This document shows, piece after piece, positions 9,438 through 56,873 of a stretch of 64,000 bases of DNA. The stretch covers positions 2,336,001-2,400,000 of the forward strand of contig NZ_JAIVFP010000001.1 in NCBI RefSeq assembly GCF_022760755.1, written 5' to 3'. The translations under genes and the position numbers were made by a program. Within the stretch, counting starts at the first letter, position 1, and each line of letters opens with the position of its first letter. The DNA comes from Candidatus Rhodoblastus alkanivorans. Its GTDB lineage: Bacteria > Pseudomonadota > Alphaproteobacteria > Rhizobiales > Beijerinckiaceae. The notes under the pieces were generated by a model, which saw nothing but the letters and a program-made list of their open reading frames with translations, did no database searches and was not told the DNA's origin.

Positions 9438-11666
9438 TCAGCTCTCGTAATAATTATGGTAGCCCTTGCTCGAAAAATGCGCGTAGCGACCTGATTGCGG
9501 GGCTTTGCTTTCTTCGATGCGGTTCAGCAGCACGCCGGCGATCTTGCCGTCGCCGCGGATGGCGTCCACGCAATGGGCGACGATTTCGCGTTGGGTTGTG
9601 CGCCAGCGCACGACATAGACGATTTTTTCGACCAGCTGCGCCAGCACTTTAGCGTCGATCACCGGGGCGACCGGGGCGGAATCAAGAAAGACGCAATCGA
9701 AATTTTCGCGCAGGCCGGCAAGATATCGCCGCATCCGCTCGGAGCCGAGCAGGTCGGGGGATGCGGTTGTTTTCGTTCCCGCCGGGATCACAGTCACGCC
9801 GTCGATGTCATGCGCGATTTCGTCTTCGCTCGCCTTGCCGAGCAGGAAGTCGGCGAGGCCGGGGCGGTCGGCGAGCTGGAAAAATCTGGTCACGACGGGA
9901 TGGCGGAGATCGGCGTCCACCAGCGCGACCTTCAGGCCGGCGCGCTGGGCGGAAAAGGCCAGCGACAAAGCCGCCGTCGTCTTGCCTTCGCGCGGGATGG
10001 TCGAGGTGACGAGAATGACTTTCGGCGGATTGTCCAGATCGACCATGCGCAGGCCGACCCGCACGGCGCGAAGCGCTTCCGCATAGCGCGACGAAGGTTT
10101 CTGGACGCCATAGGCGGCGGGTTCGAGCGCCTTGCCGCCGATGACGCGCTCGCGCGCCTTGAGCGCCGGCGCCGCGCCCAGCACCGGAAGGCCGAGCTTG
10201 TCCTCGATTTCGCCTGGCGTGAGGAAGCCTTTCTCGAGCATGTCGCGCGCGACGCCCGCGCCGATTCCGAGCAGGGCGCCGACGATCATCGCCAAGACCT
10301 CGGATGAGGTCTTTTTGGGGAAGGAGGGGACGACCGGGTCGACTGCGGGCGAGATCACGCGCGCCTCGGGCTGTTCGAAATTGGACTGTTCCTGCGCGAT
10401 CCGCGAACGGGTCAGAAAATCGTCGTACATCGCCTTGTTGGCGGCGTTGATGCGCTCGAGTTCGTGGAGGCGGAGGCCGACGGAATCGTCGAGGCCGTTG
10501 GCGGCCGCGGCTTTCTGGATGCTCAGTCGCAGCGAGGCTTCGCGGGCCGCGGCTATGTCGAAATCGTTCTTGAGATCGGTGACGATGCGCTTGATTTCGC
10601 GCCCGATCGAGAGCCGGATCGCGCCGCGTTCGGCCACCACTTTGACAACCTCCGGATTGCCCCCGGAATAGCGGGCGCGCAGATCCGCCTCGCGCCGGGC
10701 GACGTCGGCTTCCTGGCTGCGCAATTGCGTAATCAGGGTCGAACTCACGACGTCGGGAATCGTGTCGGGATCGCCGCCTTCCTTCATAATCGCCGCCGCC
10801 TGATTATATTTGGCGCGCGCTTCGGCGGTCTCCGTGTGCAATTCGGCGAGCTTCGCGTTCATTTCGGCGAGCTGCTGTTCGCCGATGGTGAGCTTGCCGT
10901 CGCTGGAGGCCGAGATCAGATTGTGTTTGCGCCGGAAGTCGGAAACGGCCTGGTCGGACGCGCGGACCTGTTGCGAAATCGCCTCCAGGCGCTCGGAAAG
11001 CCAGGCCGAAGCCTTGCGCGCGCCTTCGTAGCGGGCGGCCAATTGGTCCGAAATATAGACATTGGCGATGGCGTTGGCGACGCGTACAGCGCGATCGGGC
11101 GTCGCGGCCGTGACCGAAACGATGAGGACATAAGTGTGGTTGAAGCGCCGAACGTCGAGGGCTTCCGACAGATTGCCGATCGCGATCAGCTCCTCGGGCG
11201 GAATTTTGTCCGCCCCGTCCGCCACCCCCGGCGCGGCGCCCCCAAGGTCGGGGCCGCGAAGGAAATTGATCATTCGCGACAGGATATTGGGCTTGTGCGG
11301 CCGGCCGAATTCCGGGTCCCTCGTCAGGTCGGCGGCCGCCACCACGTGACGCAGCAAGGTGACGGAGCGCAGGACGCTGATCTGGCTGTCGATATTGGCC
11401 GTCTCCAGGCTGAACTCCGGCAGGATCGACTCGCCGAAAGCCTTGTGGCCGGCGGGATCGAGCAGAATCTGGGCGGTCGCGGTATAGAGCGGCTTGACCG
11501 TGAGCAGCCCGACCAGGGTCGCGGCCATGGTCATGAACGTAACAGCGACGATCGTCGTCCAGCGGCGTTTGAGAAAATCCTGAATACGGCGCAAATCGAG
11601 CGCGTCCTCCGCCGACGGCGCGCCGGCAGGGCTTTGATCCAGGAACTGGAGATCGAGCATGTTCAT
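9438..11666 (-). CDS. Wzc/ExoP-like chain-length regulator and bacterial tyrosine autokinase
   Basis: The 742-residue protein fuses a Wzz domain to a BY-kinase. Membrane helix 1 lies near residues 37-58, followed by a long periplasmic coiled-coil-rich region (about 200-430). Helix 2 lies near 460-480. The cytoplasmic kinase carries Walker A (STIPREGKTTAAL), Walker A' (VALVDADLRHP) and Walker B (FDCVFLDSAPV). The C-terminus is tyrosine-rich (GRYAHFSSKGYHNYYES), the usual autophosphorylation cluster. Such proteins control chain length and export together with a Wza-type outer-membrane channel, and two genes upstream encodes such a partner. The start at 11666 (ATGAACATG) lies 42 bp after the barrel gene; a second ATG two codons on is possible. 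Confidence 0.93.
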   Translation of the reverse strand: MNMLDLQFLDQSPAGAPSAEDALDLRRIQDFLKRRWTTIVAVTFMTMAATLVGLLTVKPLYTATAQILLDPAGHKAFGESILPEFSLETANIDSQISVLRSVTLLRHVVAAADLTRDPEFGRPHKPNILSRMINFLRGPDLGGAAPGVADGADKIPPEELIAIGNLSEALDVRRFNHTYVLIVSVTAATPDRAVRVANAIANVYISDQLAARYEGARKASAWLSERLEAISQQVRASDQAVSDFRRKHNLISASSDGKLTIGEQQLAEMNAKLAELHTETAEARAKYNQAAAIMKEGGDPDTIPDVVSSTLITQLRSQEADVARREADLRARYSGGNPEVVKVVAERGAIRLSIGREIKRIVTDLKNDFDIAAAREASLRLSIQKAAAANGLDDSVGLRLHELERINAANKAMYDDFLTRSRIAQEQSNFEQPEARVISPAVDPVVPSFPKKTSSEVLAMIVGALLGIGAGVARDMLEKGFLTPGEIEDKLGLPVLGAAPALKARERVIGGKALEPAAYGVQKPSSRYAEALRAVRVGLRMVDLDNPPKVILVTSTIPREGKTTAALSLAFSAQRAGLKVALVDADLRHPVVTRFFQLADRPGLADFLLGKASEDEIAHDIDGVTVIPAGTKTTASPDLLGSERMRRYLAGLRENFDCVFLDSAPVAPVIDAKVLAQLVEKIVYVVRWRTTQREIVAHCVDAIRGDGKIAGVLLNRIEESKAPQSGRYAHFSSKGYHNYYES

Positions 11667-48462: not shown

Positions 48463-48847
48463 CCCTTTGCATTTCGGAGCGCAGCTTGCCGCTCAGCGCC
48501 CAGCCGCGCCCGGAATCGGGCGCCACGCGACGAAGGCCATCGACGATTCGCTCCGGAAGGCGTCGAGATTGTGGCGCAACCACGACTCAGCGTAGCTTAA
48601 GAATTTTGCAAATTTTGTCATGCGGGCAATGATCGCGGCAAGGCAGGCGCGCCGGAGCCGAACCGACTCGGCTGTTGGAGCAGCGGAGCTAGGCAGGATT
48701 TTTGTCCGAAAGGCATTCGCCGGCTTTCGGAAAAAATCGTGTTAAGATAGGAGAATCAAAGCATTAATTGGTTGGCGAGCCACCGAATTCATGCTTGGAC
48801 GCAGTCCTCGTTGACCGCCCGCCTTATCGACGCCGCACTTTTGGGAC
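48463..48847. other. Intergenic region upstream of the PAP2 gene and the second duplicate
   Basis: No gene is supported in these 385 bp. One inverted repeat, CCGAAAG (48706-48712) and CTTTCGG (48724-48730), is flanked by TTTTT on the left and AAAAAA on the right; it lies about 330 bp before the intact regulator and could be an operator or a relic terminator. Homology to the intact transporter begins right after this region, at 48848. Confidence 0.4.
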
Positions 48848-49057
48848 CAGAACCAGCGCCTGGCCGTGTCGGAACATACCGCGGCCATCGTCTTCTATTT
48901 CACCTGCCTCACGACGTTCGTCGGCGCGGCGGCCATCGCCGGCTCTGGCCTGCTTGCTCCGCTGGGCGAACGCGCCTTCAGCGGCCGCCCGACAATCCGT
49001 TCGATATTCCAAACGATTTCGGATATTATGCCAAACGCTGGGAGACCGGACAGGTGA
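48848..49057 (+). pseudogene. EamA transporter remnant (second copy, 3' part only)
   Basis: From 48848 the sequence matches the intact transporter from about residue 172 on (QNQRLAVSEHTAAIVFYF against QTRRLTASEHTAAIVFYF). After the LTTFVGAA region it jumps to AAIAGSGLLAPLGERAF, missing 258 bp (86 codons, equivalent to 46994-47251). The ends of the missing piece in the intact copy are direct repeats of CGGCGCGGCGG, so deletion by short-repeat recombination is likely. The frame is still open to the same TGA as in the intact copy, one base before the regulator ATG. Without its first five helices it cannot work as a transporter. Confidence 0.9.
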
Positions 49058-49058
49058 A

Positions 49059-49676
49059 ATGGGCGTCGAGGGAAAGGACAAACAAAAGGCGCTCGAGGCC
49101 GGAGCCATAGCGCTTTCGGGGCAGTTGGGAAGGACGGTCCAGCGCCTTCGCAAATCCTATAACCTTTCCCTTTCCGAACTTTCCGAACAATCTGGCGTCG
49201 CCAAGTCAATTATCAGCCAGATCGAGCGCAACGACACCAATCCGACGCTCGCAACGATCTGGCGGCTCGCTCAGGCGCTCGATGTGCCGATCGAGCGCGT
49301 GCTGCAGGACCGCGACGATTCGCCCTTCATCGAGAAAGTGTCGCGGGGCGACACGCCGATCCTCGTCTCCGACGACGGCAAGTGCAAGCTCGCGGTCACC
49401 GGCTGGATCAAGACGGTCGAATGGCTGCAATGTTACGATTTCTTCGCCGAATCCGGCGGCGCGCTGGAGTCGGAGGCCCACCAGCGCGGCGCGGTGGAAA
49501 GCCTTTCGGTGATTCAGGGGGAATTGCAGGTCGAAGTCGGCGGCGCAAAGGAAATTGTCCGCGCCGGCGAGACCTTGCGCTACCGCGCCGACCGGCGGCA
49601 TGTGATCCGCAACTGCACGAAAATGCCGGCGCGGGCCGAGATGATCTGCATCTTGAAGGCGGCGGCGATGGAGTAA
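49059..49676 (+). CDS. XRE-family regulator with C-terminal cupin domain (intact copy)
   Basis: The 205-residue protein has an XRE helix-turn-helix (about 27-82: LSLSELSEQSGVAKSIISQIER, broken at family motifs) and a cupin_2 domain (about 118-200: EVGGAKEIVRAGETLRYRAD). Regulators of this layout sense a small ligand through the cupin and often control an adjacent transporter or amine/amino-acid pathway. Its start lies one base after the stop of the decayed transporter remnant, so any promoter must lie in that remnant or upstream of it. The intact transporter of the sister copy (46407-47387) is its most likely target. Confidence 0.92.
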   Translation: MGVEGKDKQKALEAGAIALSGQLGRTVQRLRKSYNLSLSELSEQSGVAKSIISQIERNDTNPTLATIWRLAQALDVPIERVLQDRDDSPFIEKVSRGDTPILVSDDGKCKLAVTGWIKTVEWLQCYDFFAESGGALESEAHQRGAVESLSVIQGELQVEVGGAKEIVRAGETLRYRADRRHVIRNCTKMPARAEMICILKAAAME

Positions 49677-49825: not shown

Positions 49826-50995
49826 ATGGCGCGTTCGCGAAGCTGGCGCACATGGGGCGCGGTCGCTGTGACCGCGATGGTTCTGTTGGCGTCGCCGGCG
49901 CGGGCAGGGTGCAATGCCAGCGATATCTTCGACGCCGCCAAAGGGACGGTGAGCGGACTGGGGAGTTGTGCATCGGCCTGCGCGACGGGAGCGGGCTGTA
50001 GCGCCGCGAGCTTCATGACATCAGTCCTGACCGGCGTCGCCGCGGCAGCGGGGCAGAGCGCGGTCAACTCGTTTTGCAGCCAGGCGGAGGGAAAGACCGA
50101 CGTCAACAAGATCATCAGCATTCTGAAATCGGCCGGCGGATCGTCGGTGGATCAGCTCGCCGGCGTGCTGAACAGCGTCGGCTCGATTACGTCGGTCGTG
50201 AAATGCGCCTGTGAAACGGAGCAGGGCGCCGGCTCATTGGGCTCCAACATCGGCGCATGCATGGAGGACGCGCTGTGCTCGCTTCAAGAAGCGCTCGGAG
50301 GCGGCTCCTGCTATTGCACGCGGCCGCCGCCCGCCCTCGCGAGATGCGCGGCGGTCAACCAGAAATGCGAAAAGGTCATGTACACCGAATGGTGGAGGTA
50401 CCCGGAATGTCAAGGCATCGGCGCTTCCGGCTCCATCTTCAACACCAACCCGAACGGCCAAAATTCGGGCGGGTACATGCAGCCCTGGCAATCGACCCTG
50501 TCGGTGACGACCACGCCCGAGGGAACTCTTGTTCAACAATTGCCGCCAACCGCCGAAGGCACGGGTTGCGGAGGCGTTCACTATTGCTTTTGTCCCGCAC
50601 CGATGAAAATCAACTGGGTCCATGTCCCCAATCCTGGCTCCGACCGTGAATTCTACGTCTTGGCTTGCGATTGCCCGGAGGGCACGCATCCCGGCGACGT
50701 CATGCCGAACGGAATTTCCTCCTGCCTTTGCGACAATACGAACCAGCCCGCCATGCTCAGCGGCCTTGCCGTGCATGGCATTTGCCCGCCGCCGGCCTGT
50801 CCGGCCGGGCAGAGCCGCATGGGCGGGGACGGCCCCTGCGTGACGCCCTGCGCCGATCCGAAACAGGGGATGGCCTTCGACGGCAGTTGTTGCGACCCCA
50901 AGCAGATGAGTTCCTGCGGCAAATGCTGTCCGCTCGACACCTTTCCCAACTCGCAGACCGGCTCCTGCGAGCCGCGACCTCAACCACCGAAATGA
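49826..50995 (+). CDS. Secreted cysteine-rich protein, unknown function
   Basis: The 389-residue protein has a clear signal peptide (WGAVAVTAMVLLASPARA, cleavage before Gly-Cys near residue 28). By my count the chain has 31 Cys, many as CxC or CC pairs (CACETE, CYC, CFCPAP, CDCPEG, CLC, CCDPKQ, CGKCC). Residues 28-150 are Ala/Gly/Ser-rich with helices; the rest is loop-like and disulfide-rich. No family is recognised. GAGGGG lies before the ATG. The next gene starts 10 bp after its stop and carries the same CC and CxPG motifs, so the pair almost certainly works together outside the cytoplasm. Confidence 0.85.
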   Translation: MARSRSWRTWGAVAVTAMVLLASPARAGCNASDIFDAAKGTVSGLGSCASACATGAGCSAASFMTSVLTGVAAAAGQSAVNSFCSQAEGKTDVNKIISILKSAGGSSVDQLAGVLNSVGSITSVVKCACETEQGAGSLGSNIGACMEDALCSLQEALGGGSCYCTRPPPALARCAAVNQKCEKVMYTEWWRYPECQGIGASGSIFNTNPNGQNSGGYMQPWQSTLSVTTTPEGTLVQQLPPTAEGTGCGGVHYCFCPAPMKINWVHVPNPGSDREFYVLACDCPEGTHPGDVMPNGISSCLCDNTNQPAMLSGLAVHGICPPPACPAGQSRMGGDGPCVTPCADPKQGMAFDGSCCDPKQMSSCGKCCPLDTFPNSQTGSCEPRPQPPK

Positions 50996-51005
50996 GGCGG
51001 CCCCT

Positions 51006-53729
51006 ATGACGGCGCCTGGCCGATATCCCTCCCTGGCGACCGCCGCCCGCGCGATGCGGCGGCTCGTCGTCGCGCTGGCTTTGGCGCAAGGGTTCTGCAG
51101 CCCGGCGCCGGCGCAGGCGGCGCAGGGCGTTTACGCCGCCGGTCAGGCCGCCGTCACCGGTTTTTCCGGCGCGCTCCGCCCGGTCCAGATTGCGCCCGGA
51201 GAGGATCCCGACGCGCAGACGTTCGTCGACCCCGATGGTCCGTCGCTGCGCGTCGTCGATCTCAGACGCATGGGCGGTCCGCCAGAGGCGCAACTCGTCG
51301 GCGCGCCGAAAACCTTCACCGTCCCCGCGAAATGGATCGGCCAGGCGTTCGGCGTCGCGCTGGACGACCATGCGCCCGCCAATATCTATGTGGCGGCAAG
51401 TTCGGCCTATGGCTTGTCGATTGTCGCGCCGGGGCCGGACGGAAAAATCCGGCATGTGAGGTTTGGAGCCGGAGGCGCGCGGTTCATGGCGGCGCAATGG
51501 GGCCCGGGCGGCGGGCCGGGTTCGATCTGGAAAATTGATGGCGCCACCGGCCGCGTGTCCCTGTTCGCCAATGTTGCAACGAATGGAAAGCCCAATTCGG
51601 GCGCCGCCCTCGGCGGCCTGGCCTATGACGCGGCCACCAAATCTTTGTTCGTCGCCGACCGCGAGAGCGGCCTGATCCATCGGTTCGGCCTCAACGGCGC
51701 CGATCTTGGCGTCTATGATCACGGCGCCGTCGCGTTGGCCGCTGTCGGCCTTCCGCCGGCGCCCATGAACGCCGGGTCCGGAGTCGATATTTCAAGCCCG
51801 CGCTTCGACAGCGCGCGGCCCGAGACCTGGGGTTACGCCCCGCCGGAAAAGCGCATATTCGGCCTCGCGACGCACGACCATCGGCTTTATTACGGCGTCG
51901 CCGACGGCTTGCGGATCTGGTCCGTCGGCCTCAATGCCGACGGCTCCTTCGGCGCGGACCCCCGAATCGAAATCGCGGTCCCTCCCGCCGCCGGCCCCAC
52001 CGAAATTTCCGGGATCAAATTCGACGATCTTGGCCGCATCTATCTCGCGGAGCGTCCGGCGCCGACCGGCGCCCAGGATTTCGAGGCGCTCTCCACGCCC
52101 CCCATTGGCCGCGTGCTGCGCTACGCCGTCATCGGCGTCATGGAGTCGAAACAGCCGATCTGGCAGACCGCGCCGGACGAATATGCGATCGGATTCCCAG
52201 AGCGCTTCCGCAACGCCAATGGCGGCGTGGCGATCGGCTACAGCTACGATTTGGACGGCAATCTGAACCCCGCCTCCTGCGGCGGATTCCTCTGGGCCAC
52301 CGGCGAGCGGCTGCGCGACGCCTCCGATCCCAAGCTCGCCGCCATGCTTGGCCAAAAGGATGCGTCGGCGATCAACGGCTTGCAGGGCAATCCCGTGTGG
52401 CTCATCCGACGCGGCGACGAGCCGCCGCTGCATAGCTATTTCATGGATTACGCCGATGCATCCCCCGATCCTCTGGCGCGCGGCCATATGGGCGACGTCG
52501 CGATCCTGCGCTCCTGCGCGGAGAAAGCCGCGCTTCTCACCTCTGGCAGGCCTATCGCGGAAGCCCCGCCGCCGCCCGCCGCGGCGCCGCCCGCCGCCCC
52601 GCCGAAGCCGCTCGGACGTCTCCTTTGCCAATTCCGCGTTTGCGCGCCCGACCAGCCGGCCTGCCCGCCCAATTACGTCTGGAGCCTTGCCGCCCGCGCC
52701 TGCGCTCCGGGCTGCGCGCCGCAGGAAATCCTCATCAATGGCAGGTGCTGCGCGAAAGCCGATATGCGGCCGGGCGGCGCCTGCGCCAACAATACACCAT
52801 CAACCGGCATAGCCCAGCCGAAGTGTGGAACGACGCAGACGGCGATCGGCCCCAAGCATGAATGCTGCGACAACGACCATATCTATTCCGGCGCCGGCGG
52901 CGAGCAGCTGTGCTGCCCGACCGCGCTGAACAACGGCAAATGCAGCCCGCTCATTCCCAAGATACCGAAGCAGCCCTGCCCAGATTGCTGCGCCCCGGGC
53001 TATGTGTCTCTCAACGGATCATGTTGCCTTCAGAGTCAGGTCGCCAAATCGGGAAAATGCTGTCAGGCCGGACAGACGCCGGCTCCGGACGGCAGCCAGT
53101 GCCTGTCGCTTCATCGTTTGCCGAAGTTCTCGTTTTGCTGCGCCTCGGGCTATGTTCCGGCTGGCGGCGGGACCTGCTGCGCCATCGCCAATCTGACGTC
53201 GAGCGGCCTATGCTGCGCGGCGCCGGTCGATCCGAACGATCGCGGACATTGTCCGGGGAAAGCGGAGAAAAAGTCTCTCACTCCTCCGCCCGCGATCGTT
53301 CCATTGACGCCGCTCGCGCCAAAAGCCTGCGGTCCCAACGAGCGCCGCACCAAGGCGGGCGCATGCGTCCCGCGCAAACAGCGGCGCATAAGCCGCCCGC
53401 CTGTCGAACCGCCACCCGCGATCGTTCCACATGCGCCGGCTGCGCCGAAGGCCTGCGGACCGGGCGAGCGCCGCAACAGGGCGGGCGCATGCATTCCGCA
53501 CGGACGGCGGCATATGCGCGAACCGGCTTCCGGGCCGCCGTCTGCCGGCGCGCGCCCGATGGTCTGCCCTCCCGGCTGGACTGTCGGTCCGCTCGGCAGG
53601 CGCTGCTGGCCGCCCCGGCGCGCTCCGGTCGCGCCCCAATTCCACGGCGGCGGGCGCCATATTTCATGTCCGCCCGGCATGACGCCCGGGCCGATGGGAA
53701 TGCGTTGCTTCCCCATTCGCGGGCGGTGA
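51006..53729 (+). CDS. Secreted beta-propeller protein with cysteine-rich C-terminal region
   Basis: The 907-residue protein has a signal peptide (MRRLVVALALAQGF..., ending PAQA); the ATG at 51006 follows GAGGCGG, and an ATG 16 codons later is an alternative. Residues about 60-510 look like a beta-propeller (repeats such as GLAYDAATKSLFVADRESG, ISGIKFDDLGRIYLAERPA). After a Pro/Ala linker, residues about 535-907 hold most of about 40 Cys in repeated CC blocks (GRCCAKAD, HECCDND, GSCCLQS, GKCCQAG, GTCCAIA). The end contains two copies of a unit with PKACGPxERRxxAGAC, then two CPPGxTxGPxGxRC motifs. No enzyme family is recognised. It may be an adhesive or surface-binding protein; that is speculation. 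Confidence 0.85.
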   Translation: MTAPGRYPSLATAARAMRRLVVALALAQGFCSPAPAQAAQGVYAAGQAAVTGFSGALRPVQIAPGEDPDAQTFVDPDGPSLRVVDLRRMGGPPEAQLVGAPKTFTVPAKWIGQAFGVALDDHAPANIYVAASSAYGLSIVAPGPDGKIRHVRFGAGGARFMAAQWGPGGGPGSIWKIDGATGRVSLFANVATNGKPNSGAALGGLAYDAATKSLFVADRESGLIHRFGLNGADLGVYDHGAVALAAVGLPPAPMNAGSGVDISSPRFDSARPETWGYAPPEKRIFGLATHDHRLYYGVADGLRIWSVGLNADGSFGADPRIEIAVPPAAGPTEISGIKFDDLGRIYLAERPAPTGAQDFEALSTPPIGRVLRYAVIGVMESKQPIWQTAPDEYAIGFPERFRNANGGVAIGYSYDLDGNLNPASCGGFLWATGERLRDASDPKLAAMLGQKDASAINGLQGNPVWLIRRGDEPPLHSYFMDYADASPDPLARGHMGDVAILRSCAEKAALLTSGRPIAEAPPPPAAAPPAAPPKPLGRLLCQFRVCAPDQPACPPNYVWSLAARACAPGCAPQEILINGRCCAKADMRPGGACANNTPSTGIAQPKCGTTQTAIGPKHECCDNDHIYSGAGGEQLCCPTALNNGKCSPLIPKIPKQPCPDCCAPGYVSLNGSCCLQSQVAKSGKCCQAGQTPAPDGSQCLSLHRLPKFSFCCASGYVPAGGGTCCAIANLTSSGLCCAAPVDPNDRGHCPGKAEKKSLTPPPAIVPLTPLAPKACGPNERRTKAGACVPRKQRRISRPPVEPPPAIVPHAPAAPKACGPGERRNRAGACIPHGRRHMREPASGPPSAGARPMVCPPGWTVGPLGRRCWPPRRAPVAPQFHGGGRHISCPPGMTPGPMGMRCFPIRGR

Positions 53730-53944
53730 GGGCTCAGGCCAAGGTTCGCCGTCGCGGCGGACCGAGCCGGGCATTCCCCAGAATTGTCGCAATGGCGCTC
53801 ATTCTGTTCTTTGCCCCGATTGGCGACCCACAAACGCCCGCAGGACGCGAACGCGCGCCCAATTCGCGCGGGAGCCAGGCTCTGGCCAGGGTGAGAGCCA
53901 GACTGTACAAACGAGGCTGCAGCACGCCGTTCAAGGAGCGTCGA

Positions 53945-54277
53945 ATGAAATTTCCCCGGCGCGCCGTGCGCAAAACCTTCGCCCTTTTGAGCCTCGGCCT
54001 GTCGGCGTTCGCGATGCCTGACGCCGCATCGGCGCAAGCGTCCCGCGCGCCCTATGTGATGTTCTGGCGCCAGCTTGGCGGGAACTGGTCGGCGGGTCCC
54101 TATCCGGTTCAGACAGAGACTTGCGTGCACGCCAGCCCCCGGGCCGCCTGCAACGGCCAGAATTTCAAGGGCGTCTATAGCAACGGACAATATGCCCTGT
54201 TCTGGATCAACGGATGCCGGCAGCCGCCGATAACGATCGAGTGCGAAGTCCATCCCGCCGCTCCGGCGGCGAAGTGA
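53945..54277 (+). CDS. Small secreted protein, unknown function
   Basis: The 110-residue protein has a signal peptide (TFALLSLGLSAFAMPDAASA, cleavage near residue 31) and a mature part of about 80 residues with four Cys, likely two disulfides (ETCVHAS, RAACNGQ, INGCRQP, IECEVH), and several aromatics (YVMFWRQLGGNW). The start at 53945 has a good ribosome-binding site (AAGGAG). It lies 215 bp after the propeller gene on the same strand and is probably part of the same secreted set. No family is recognised. Confidence 0.78.
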   Translation: MKFPRRAVRKTFALLSLGLSAFAMPDAASAQASRAPYVMFWRQLGGNWSAGPYPVQTETCVHASPRAACNGQNFKGVYSNGQYALFWINGCRQPPITIECEVHPAAPAAK

Positions 54278-54322
54278 ACGCGTGACACCGCTGACGCTGC
54301 TGGCGCATATAGAGCGGGGTGC

Positions 54323-54349
54323 AAAAAAACGGTCGCCGTTTGGACCGTT
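54323..54349 (-). terminator. Intrinsic terminator facing the minus strand
   Basis: Read on the minus strand, AACGGTC and GACCGTT form a 7-bp stem, followed at once by a run of T (A-tract 54323-54329 on the plus strand). No minus-strand gene is seen immediately to the right, so it may end antisense or small-RNA transcription. On the plus strand it would only be a hairpin after an A-tract. Confidence 0.5.
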
Positions 54350-54530
54350 GAGATCAATCAAGCGGGCGCGGCCCGTTCGTCCGCGACGATTTGCGGTTCT
54401 CGGGCGAAAAGGGGCGTAAATTGAATGAAATTACTCTATCCTTCGCCATCCGAATTGCCCTGAGAATGCGTTCCGCGAAGCGGCGTCATTTCTGCGCTGT
54501 CAGCGCGACGGATGGGATGCCTGGCCGGCC

Positions 54531-56873
54531 GTGACAAATGTTCCCTCCAAGCCGATCGGTTCCGGCGCTCATGATCAGGCCGGATTATCATCGGAGGCCG
54601 CCCGCCGTCTCCTCGCGGAGTATGGCTTCAACGAAGTGGCCGAAGCGAAGCGCAATGCGGCCGCCGCACTGCTCAGCCATTTCTGGGCGCCGGTGCCGTG
54701 GATGCTCGAAGCCGCGGTTCTGCTCCAAGTCCTGATCCGAGAATATCTTGAAGCCGCGGTGATCGGGGGTCTCCTGGCGTTCAATGCTTTGCTTTCCTTC
54801 CTGCAAGGGAAGCGGGCCGAAGCCGCATTGGCCGCCCTCAAGTCGCGACTCGCGCTTACCGCGTCGGTTCGGCGCGACGGTGCCTGGGTCATGCTGCCGG
54901 CGCGGGAGATCGTTCCCGGCGATGTGGTGAAGCTGTCTCTCGGCGCCATTGTCCCCGCGGACGTGCGCTTGGTTTCCGGCAGCGTGCTTCTCGACCAGTC
55001 GATGATCACCGGCGAATCGCTCCCGGCGGAGGCAGGCGTCAATGACGCGACCTACGCCGGTGCAATGGTCAGGCGCGGCGAGGCGGAGGCAGTGGTGACC
55101 GCGACCGGCCCTCGCACTTACTCCGGTAGGGCCGCCGAACTTGTGCGTATCGCGCATGGACCCAGCGCCGAGCAATCGGCAATCCTCAGGGTGGTCCGCA
55201 ATCTTGCGATGTTCAACGGCCTCGTGCTCCTGTTGATGGCTGCATATGCGCGCGCCCACGACATGTCCGGCACCCATCTTATTGCGCTCACGCTGACCGT
55301 CATTCTCGCCTCGGTTCCGGTGGCGCTGCCAGCGACTTTCACGCTGGCTAGCGCGCTCGGCGCCCAGCGCCTGATTCGTCATGGGGTGTTGCCGACCCGG
55401 CTTTCCGCTGTGCATGACGCGGCGGCGATGGATGTCCTTTGTTCGGATAAAACCGGAACGCTGACGCAAAATACGCTCAAGGTGGCCGCAGTGCGCGCTT
55501 TTTCTGGCTTCAGCGAGCAGGAGGTTCTGGCCTTGGCCGCGGCAGCCAGCAGCGAGGGCGGCAAGGACCCGGTCGACTCTGCGGTTCGGGCCGCGGCCGA
55601 GGAGCGCGGAGCGGCGCCCGAGCAGGCGCTCAACTTCGTTCCCTTCGATCCCGCGACCAAATTTTCGGAGGCGCTGATCGCCCGCGATGGAACGACATGG
55701 CGCGTGGTCAAGGGCGCTTTTGCGACGGTTGCGGCGCTCGCCGCCACGTCTGCCGAGGCGACGGGCAGCGCCAATGAACTTGCCACGCGCGGCAGTCGCG
55801 TGCTCGCGATCGGTTGTGGGCCCGCGCAAAATTTCCGCGTCGCGGGACTGATCGCGCTGAGCGATCCGCCGCGCGCCGACGCCGCTCCGTTGATCAGTGA
55901 GCTTGCTTCACTTGGGGTGGCGACTGTCATGGTCACGGGTGACGCGGCGCCGACGGCGGGCGCCGTCGCCCGCGCTATCGGCCTCAGTGGGCCGATTTGC
56001 CCCGCCCCGCGCATCCCGGACCGCGTTGCGCCTGCCGACTTCGGAGTTTTCGCCGGCGTGTTCCCGGAAGACAAGTTCCGACTGGTGAAGGCTTTCCAGA
56101 CAAGCGGCCACACGGTTGGCATGTGCGGCGATGGAGCCAACGATGCGCCGGCATTGCGGCAGGCGCAGATCGGGATCGCGGTGTCCACGGCGACGGATGT
56201 CGCAAAATCGGCGGCGGGGCTGGTGCTGACCGAACCAGGCCTTGGCGGGATCGTGGCAGCGGTCAAGGAAGGACGCGCCACCTTCCAACGCATTCTGACC
56301 TATACGATTAATGCGCTTCTCAAAAAAATCGAGATGGTGTTGTTTCTCGGCGGCGGCCTCGTGATGACCGGCGACGCGGTGCTGACGCCGATCCTCATGG
56401 CGCTGTTGCTTGTCACCAATGATTTTCTAACCATGTCCCTGACGACGGATCGGGCCCGTCCGTCGCCGCGGCCCGAAGTCTGGCTGATCGGCCCGATCAC
56501 CGCGGTGGCGGTGGCGCTCGGGCTGGTCAAGCTCGCCTTCTCGACCGCTGTGCTGGCGGTTGGGCGTTTCGGCCTCGGTCTGTCGATCGGCCCGCTGCGA
56601 ACTCTGGCTTTTTTCACCATGGTGGTCGACGCCCAGGCGACCGTCTATGTGATCCGCGAACGCCGGCGGCTATGGTCGTCGTGGCCGGGCGCCTGGGTTG
56701 TCCTTTCGAGCGCCGTCGATCTCGGCATCGGCTCTTTTGTTTCGCTGAGCGGCTGGCTGACGCCGGCGCTCCCGGTCGGCGCCCTGATTGGGCTCATTGC
56801 AGCGGCGGCGGCGTTCGCGCTGCTGCTGGACGCCGTGAAGGCGCCAGTATTGCGCCGACTCGGGATCGTTTGA
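54531..56873 (+). CDS. P-type ATPase, P3A (plasma-membrane proton pump) type
   Basis: The 780-residue protein has the P-type motifs TGES (MITGESLPAEAG), phosphorylation site DKTGTLTQN (Asp306), MVTGD and GDGANDAPALRQAQIGIAVS. It has no N-terminal metal-binding domain and no CPx motif; helix 4 reads ILASVPVALPATFTLA, as in P3A proton pumps of fungi, plants and some prokaryotes (shorter than the ~900 residues of fungal pumps). It would pump H+ out of the cytoplasm using ATP. The start is GTG at 54531. The convergent ClC gene suggests a pH or ion homeostasis theme. Calcium or magnesium transport is less likely. Confidence 0.88.
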   Translation: MTNVPSKPIGSGAHDQAGLSSEAARRLLAEYGFNEVAEAKRNAAAALLSHFWAPVPWMLEAAVLLQVLIREYLEAAVIGGLLAFNALLSFLQGKRAEAALAALKSRLALTASVRRDGAWVMLPAREIVPGDVVKLSLGAIVPADVRLVSGSVLLDQSMITGESLPAEAGVNDATYAGAMVRRGEAEAVVTATGPRTYSGRAAELVRIAHGPSAEQSAILRVVRNLAMFNGLVLLLMAAYARAHDMSGTHLIALTLTVILASVPVALPATFTLASALGAQRLIRHGVLPTRLSAVHDAAAMDVLCSDKTGTLTQNTLKVAAVRAFSGFSEQEVLALAAAASSEGGKDPVDSAVRAAAEERGAAPEQALNFVPFDPATKFSEALIARDGTTWRVVKGAFATVAALAATSAEATGSANELATRGSRVLAIGCGPAQNFRVAGLIALSDPPRADAAPLISELASLGVATVMVTGDAAPTAGAVARAIGLSGPICPAPRIPDRVAPADFGVFAGVFPEDKFRLVKAFQTSGHTVGMCGDGANDAPALRQAQIGIAVSTATDVAKSAAGLVLTEPGLGGIVAAVKEGRATFQRILTYTINALLKKIEMVLFLGGGLVMTGDAVLTPILMALLLVTNDFLTMSLTTDRARPSPRPEVWLIGPITAVAVALGLVKLAFSTAVLAVGRFGLGLSIGPLRTLAFFTMVVDAQATVYVIRERRRLWSSWPGAWVVLSSAVDLGIGSFVSLSGWLTPALPVGALIGLIAAAAAFALLLDAVKAPVLRRLGIV

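Follow-up and report, generated by a model that had tools for sequence, protein, structure and literature searches.

The region described here lies within a window of 64,000 nucleotides (the whole stretch of DNA that was analyzed) and holds three genes on the same strand, named p1, p2 and p3 (Table 1). A sequence-only reading had taken them for a secreted, cysteine-rich trio, and its figures were reproduced by ORF analysis and cysteine counting: 389 aa with 31 Cys for p1, 907 aa with 40 Cys for p2 and 110 aa with 4 Cys for p3. Both p1 and p2 are intact ORFs separated by 10 nt, the spacing given earlier. One of the 40 p2 cysteines falls in the signal sequence, leaving 39 in the mature protein. 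The proposed export of the three proteins was upheld by inspection, each beginning with a Sec-type signal sequence (hydrophobicity was scored for p1 and p2 only); in p1 this comprises a hydrophobic stretch followed by an AxA-like site.

Table 1. Genes and features of the p1-p2-p3 region (window positions).
Feature	Position	Strand	Remarks
p1	49826..50995	+	ORF of 389 aa; exported and rich in Cys (31 in the mature protein)
p1 signal sequence, residues 1-27	49826..49906	+	Cut placed by inspection at ...SPARA/GC
p1 C-terminal 7-Cys repeat unit, residues 342-381, extra Cys364	50849..50968	+	Candidate interchain Cys, codon 50915-50917
p2	51006..53729	+	ORF; exported, 907 aa, 39 mature Cys, beta-propeller and Cys-rich tail
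p2 beta-propeller domain, residues 40-508	51123..52529	+	Alignment A6, model, Foldseek
p2 Cys-rich tail, residues 541-901	52626..53708	+	CC repeats followed by simple C-x-C units
p2 last CC-repeat unit, residues 711-749, 7 Cys, begins Cys711-Cys712	53136..53252	+	Candidate interchain Cys
p3	53945..54277	+	Exported, small (110 aa with 4 Cys); outside the module

The layout of p1, as judged from an alignment of 20 homologues and from a structure model (mean pLDDT 72.3, pTM 0.45), comprises an N-terminal alpha-helical Cys domain and a beta/Cys-rich C-terminal half. The best Foldseek match to the p1 fold reached an E of only 0.11. A lipobox typically has L at −3 and G, A or S at −1 ahead of the first Cys. 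It was not conserved across the p1 homologues, in which R-A-G, R-A-D or G-G-S, for example, precede the first Cys, and lipoprotein status of p1 was therefore rejected as the source of the odd cysteine parity described below. The likeness of the CC-repeat tail of p2 to that of p1, remarked on from the sequence, was recovered by tblastn of p1 homologues against p2 tails (E down to ~1e-13, with the low-complexity filter and the composition correction off).

Residues 40-508 of p2 are well conserved (alignment A6), and the AlphaFold2 model predicts a beta-propeller over residues ~40-508, in agreement with the propeller-like N-terminal part that had been proposed. The pLDDT block means lie mostly at 61-94 over residues 41-430, with a dip at 241-260, and are lower in the tail. 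Foldseek aligned the predicted propeller with LRP2, DFPase, SMP-30-like and NHL propellers at a probability near 1, the TM-score normalized to the target being at most 0.57 among the matches listed. Its likeness to the SMP-30/DFPase/lactonase and NHL propellers is one of predicted fold; it differs from the SMP-30/DFPase/lactonase proteins in that the window p2 has no Pfam match and that a profile search of PDB sequences gave nothing significant (best E 0.08).

None of p1, p2 and p3 matched a Pfam, PHROG or PADLOC family or any NCBIfam model above its cut-off, and the earlier statement that p1 and p2 belong to no known family stands for these four collections. Among the 20 p1 homologues only scattered weak family matches occurred, each in a single member. 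The PADLOC and PHROG searches thus gave no anti-phage defence or phage protein match for p1 or p2. Searches of viral contigs yielded no p2 relative and those of a plasmid collection no p1, and phage or plasmid cargo was rejected on these grounds; one distant propeller was located on a 1.4-Mb plasmid record.

The propeller domain was found in 114 of 397 genomes sampled from the order (59 of 142 genera), with up to 4 match rows per genome, and in 5 of 385 genomes of a whole-class draw, the window's own included. By the profile searches it constitutes an undescribed family of exported proteins without a Pfam or NCBIfam model. The tails of its members vary and include CC repeats, EB modules, DUF11 repeats, and peptidoglycan-binding or short domains. 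DUF11 repeats together with peptidoglycan-binding domains occur in L033 and L036, and peptidoglycan-binding domains form the tail in L120 and L125, giving 4 of the 14 propeller relatives scanned with Pfam. The tail of L031, a protein without p1, matches the EB module (PF01683) over 7 stretches at an E of 1.5e-16, and one of the 23 members of alignment A3 matches the MXAN_6577-like repeats (NF041328) at 1.1e-6, whereas p1 and p2 of the window match neither; the CC-repeat units of p1 and p2 differ from both kinds of repeat.

A four-sequence p2 alignment (A1) searched against genomes gave 22 loci, and in 17 of these p1 immediately precedes p2, the exceptions being L030-L033 and L036. Rhodoblastus acidophilus DSM 142, which shares its genus with the window genome, is represented among the 22 (L016). 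When 60 relatives were searched, p1 occurred in four (the window's own genome, G001 of the same genus, G007 and G031), all of which have the p1-p2 pair. It is rarer than the propeller: five of the 397 order genomes matched, two of these matches were p2 tails, and the three true p1 genomes all have a propeller match. The genus of G146 (265 genomes) added 17 p1 matches, of which 10 include the N-terminal part of p1 and 7 cover the tail only. p1 is a rare protein that accompanies p2, with a single exception. This is L206 (genome G864), a fusion of a p1-like N-terminal domain with a long tail rich in Cys; a ScsC-like oxidoreductase gene follows it, and its 11-kb locus gave no propeller match of at least 300 positions.

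The idea of a trio was borne out for p1 and p2 and fell for p3, which was rejected as a third module member. It was present at none of the 22 loci, and among the four p1 genomes of the 60 relatives only the window's own carried it, so that the co-occurrence check failed. A wider search placed p3 in 11 of 394 genomes, counting the window's own; G146 and G354, the other two true p1 genomes of the 397 sampled from the order, were not among these matches, although the draw of 394 may not include both. Two tandem p1 genes, both copies with odd Cys counts, precede one p2 in L017 (5556-7986) and L020 (3543-5982), and a 1:1 pairing is therefore not the whole story. Genome G920, from the genus of G146, carries two complete p1-p2-oxidoreductase modules (L203 and L023).

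The recurrent third gene, lying after p2 on the same strand, emerged from neighbour clustering and is not p3; Pfam identified its product as a DSBA-domain protein. A ScsC/DsbA-like gene of this kind follows p2 at 16 of the 21 p1-p2 loci whose sequence extends beyond p2 (13 of the earlier set plus L200, L201 and L203) and is absent from five (the window, L019, L028, L107 and L205). Presence was scored by clustering of gene calls together with tblastn, four loci being found by tblastn alone. Among propeller rows without p1 the gene was found in 0 of 62, one of these rows being a duplicate and some stopping at the propeller gene or shortly beyond it, and later in 0 of 5. All six oxidoreductases tested contain PF01323 (DSBA; E 1e-22 to 1e-25), and four of the six match ScsC_N (PF18312), L022 and L025 above the cut-off and L026 and L029 below it. 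The CxxC is invariant in the nine aligned sequences (CGYC, CGFC or CAYC), and a TP motif stands as at the cis-Pro. After p2 of the window no remnant was detected, nothing falling below E 1 in 53701-54600. The window genome has oxidoreductase paralogues elsewhere; the best of these, L038, is 40-46% identical to the module copies and groups in the tree with copies common to all 13 genomes examined (89/56). A linked ScsC-type gene would fit the need for oxidative folding of some 70 cysteines.

Caulobacter ScsC is described in PMC8900818 as a trimeric disulfide isomerase. Wolbachia DsbA2 (WpDsbA2), the subject of PMC6450060, is grouped here with ScsC as an isomerase of this trimeric kind. The module oxidoreductases resemble these proteins in their DSBA domain, CxxC and TP motif; ScsC_N, matched above its cut-off in two of the six tested and below it in two more, is a candidate further likeness. 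They differ in forming a weakly supported group of their own (56/86), apart from the copies present in all 13 genomes, and in standing beside their presumed substrates.

The cysteine numbers of the two proteins follow a rule. The majority of extracytoplasmic bacterial proteins are described as having even numbers of Cys (PMC5403849), and odd numbers are said to be able to signal intermolecular disulfides or metal sites (PMC3177088). Mature p1 accompanying p2 has an odd count in all 25 homologues. The first 20 rows had 29, 31 or 33 Cys (33 in L028), and the p1 of G354 (L108) has 32, one of which lies in the signal sequence, leaving 31. In that genome the p1 stop codon lies ~200 bases from a contig end and p2 (L107) runs off the end of a different contig; p1-p2 adjacency was inferred from this arrangement and L107 was placed in the p1-accompanied group.

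For p2, counts are odd in 20 of 21 proteins with p1 and in 3 of 59 without. The first rows gave 16 odd among 17 complete p1-accompanied proteins (35 to 65 Cys; 35 to 69 overall) and 3 odd among 54 p2-like proteins with no p1 on the locus (4 to 76 Cys). Here 'p1-less' means that no p1 lies on the fetched locus. Applied to these p2 counts, Fisher's test yields 1e-14, a value that ignores kinship. The only even p2 beside a p1 is that of L026 (38 Cys). In this metagenome-assembled locus the p2 ORF ends in TGA (10521-10523) ~70 codons before the homologous end, and the in-frame stretch after the TGA contains 7 Cys. The three odd proteins without p1 on the locus are L136, L147 and L162 (25, 45 and 7 Cys); other partners or sequence errors are possible causes.

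The 60 propeller regions were hand-picked from the matches in the 397 order genomes and are mostly long-tailed, with more than one region from several genera; a propeller row was obtained from 59, whereas L108 contains p1 only. Rows dropped from the p2 parity table were the duplicates L109 and L158 and those cut by contig ends (L027, L127, L148, L150, L153, L154, L161 and L164), and L034 was left out because its p2 was too short for the table. Counts made after the rule had been noted comprised 4 p1 and 9 p2, all of which fit it. The new p1 loci, fetched from the genus of G146, were L200, L201, L203 and L205, with 33, 29, 33 and 33 Cys in p1 and 35, 35, 69 and 65 in p2, all of them odd. Five new propeller proteins with no p1 on the locus had 44, 48, 44, 44 and 44 Cys, all even. 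The later regions numbered 15, of which L202, L204, L208, L209 and L210 had already been counted and were left out. Two of the p1-less proteins, L207 (genome G901) and L213 (G888), are second copies in genomes where p1 stands beside another p2, and that other copy is odd (L205 and L017).

Apart from the exceptions named above, each partner is thus odd where the two genes occur together and even where they stand apart, and from this we infer an interchain disulfide between p1 and p2. The two proteins are probably joined by that disulfide as the two subunits of an exported cell-envelope heterodimer. They would leave the cytosol via Sec, as their signal sequences indicate. In the periplasm nearly all Cys would pair within their own chain, often inside CC-repeat units, and the one left over in each chain would pair across p1 and p2. 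In most relatives the ScsC-type oxidoreductase encoded directly downstream would introduce or shuffle the disulfides of p1 and p2; in the window, which has no local gene for it, a paralogue encoded in another part of the genome would have to do this. The propeller is a likely ligand-binding or catalytic module.

It is less likely, though it deserves serious weight, that the unpaired Cys serve otherwise, as a redox thiol, a metal ligand or the link of p1-p1 or p2-p2 homodimers, with p1 and p2 associating non-covalently. Metal binding is given as another cause of odd Cys counts in PMC3177088, and two p1 genes accompany a single p2 in L017 and L020. Such uses do not, however, predict that the parities of p1 and p2 depend on each other: p2 is even in 56 of the 59 proteins without p1, and the lone p1-like protein without an adjacent p2 (L206, a single case) has 60 Cys, an even number.

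Candidate residues for the heterodimer bond were sought in the repeat units. The last p2 unit starts with CC and has 7 Cys in 21 of 21 p1-accompanied p2 (17 of 17, and 4 of 4 later), the window p2 unit running from Cys711-712 to 749, whereas such a unit starts with a single C in 8 of the 9 p1-less proteins that have one. A six-Cys repeat of the form C..CC..CC..C occurs once in each of eight p1-less proteins (L105, L106, L111, L207 and L211-L214). In p1 the C-terminal unit carries an extra Cys before its second CC in all 25 proteins (20 of 20 in alignment A4, 4 of 4 later, and L108), which in the window is Cys364; L206 has no 7-Cys unit. The two 7-Cys units may thus be where p1 and p2 meet, with p1 Cys364 and p2 Cys711 or Cys712 as weak candidates for the bond. 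The assignment is weak because CC likewise opens the last-but-one p2 unit in 12 of 17 proteins, often after a further nearby Cys, and because a series of units beginning with CC is present in L030, which lacks p1; the model of the p2 tail is also of low confidence.

An envelope location of the complex is suggested by the signal sequences and by the peptidoglycan-binding domains of some propeller relatives. A pair of surface adhesins, or an antagonism pair acting by contact or as a secreted toxin, along the lines suggested in the sequence-only reading, would likewise be exported, would suit the large, repetitive Cys-rich tails, and could be as patchily distributed as p1 is (3 true genomes of 397). 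We nevertheless regard it as unlikely, since p1 and p2 have no profile match in Pfam, NCBIfam, PADLOC or PHROGs, no p2 relative appeared in viral contigs and no p1 in the plasmid collection, and 4 of the 14 scanned propeller relatives have a peptidoglycan-binding domain.

In the p2 tree the p1-accompanied proteins fall into a single clade nested among the others (99/94), and the switch to odd is therefore a single event. The weight of the parity rule, as read from these counts, lies in the later retention of the odd number and not in the one switch. Over 71 rows at least 48 changes of total count stand against 5 changes of parity (Fitch), and over the 54 p1-less rows 40 against 3. With coin-flip labels on the p1-less tips parity changes never fell below 11 in 1000 trials, and with such labels on the p1-accompanied tips zero changes occurred in 1 of 5000. 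That odd parity was merely inherited, functionless Cys gains in the p2 clade and at the origin of p1 letting kinship mimic a rule, agrees with the single clade but is quite improbable given that p1-accompanied p2 proteins contain between 35 and 69 Cys and remain odd through 6 count changes with no parity change (16 rows without L026), and in four later p2, and that p1 varies among 29, 31 and 33 with no even case in 25.

The disulfide-linked heterodimer may be set beside several known systems. AssT, also called AstA, is itself a propeller. The nearest known arrangement is that of AssT/AstA with DsbL and DsbI, by analogy and not by family membership. As described in PMC4460558, AssT is an enzyme with a dedicated DsbA-like oxidase, operon-linked in some groups. 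The systems in question are AssT-DsbL-DsbI in E. coli CFT073 and Salmonella and dsbA2-dsbB-astA in Campylobacter. The likeness is that a DsbA-like gene adjoins the gene of its presumed substrate, at 16 of 21 p1-p2 loci and not in the window. The differences are that p2 has no arylsulfotransferase match, nor any other in Pfam or NCBIfam, that the p1-p2 oxidoreductase is of the ScsC type, and that a second Cys-rich subunit is present. The outer membrane complex of chlamydiae (OmcA, OmcB and MOMP) likewise consists of Cys-rich envelope proteins with interchain disulfides. No profile match links it to p1 and p2, and it forms a network, where a defined pair is proposed for p1 and p2. Within the open-licence literature searched no paper was recognized as treating the p1-p2 module.

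A broader reading may be ventured, which we hold somewhat more doubtful than not. The module could represent a class of envelope complex not described before: a p1-p2 heterodimer, obligate and covalent, that was born when a fully paired propeller protein gained p1, one unpaired Cys and its own ScsC-type enzyme, and that is passed between Hyphomicrobiales as a unit of three genes. If so, Cys parity followed along a tree would be a general way to find covalent partners from sequence alone: counts that are even apart and odd together through dozens of gains and losses would be a signal of interchain disulfides that can be scanned for elsewhere. Two unannotated families would gain a concrete proposal of quaternary structure, along with a folding enzyme probably dedicated to them, one of the two being the propeller family, still without a Pfam or NCBIfam model.

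The patchy spread of the module suggests horizontal transfer, because the p2 of G007 (L029), a genome of the window's own genus, groups with other lineages in the p2 tree. In G007 a tRNA-Phe gene (L011 16914-16989) lies directly upstream of p1 on the same strand and could mark an integration site. A promoter scan gave no sigma-70-like site. In the window, a regulator gene at 48768-49676 encodes HTH and cupin domains; the listed ORF has ~118 residues ahead of the HTH, and its true start probably lies further in.
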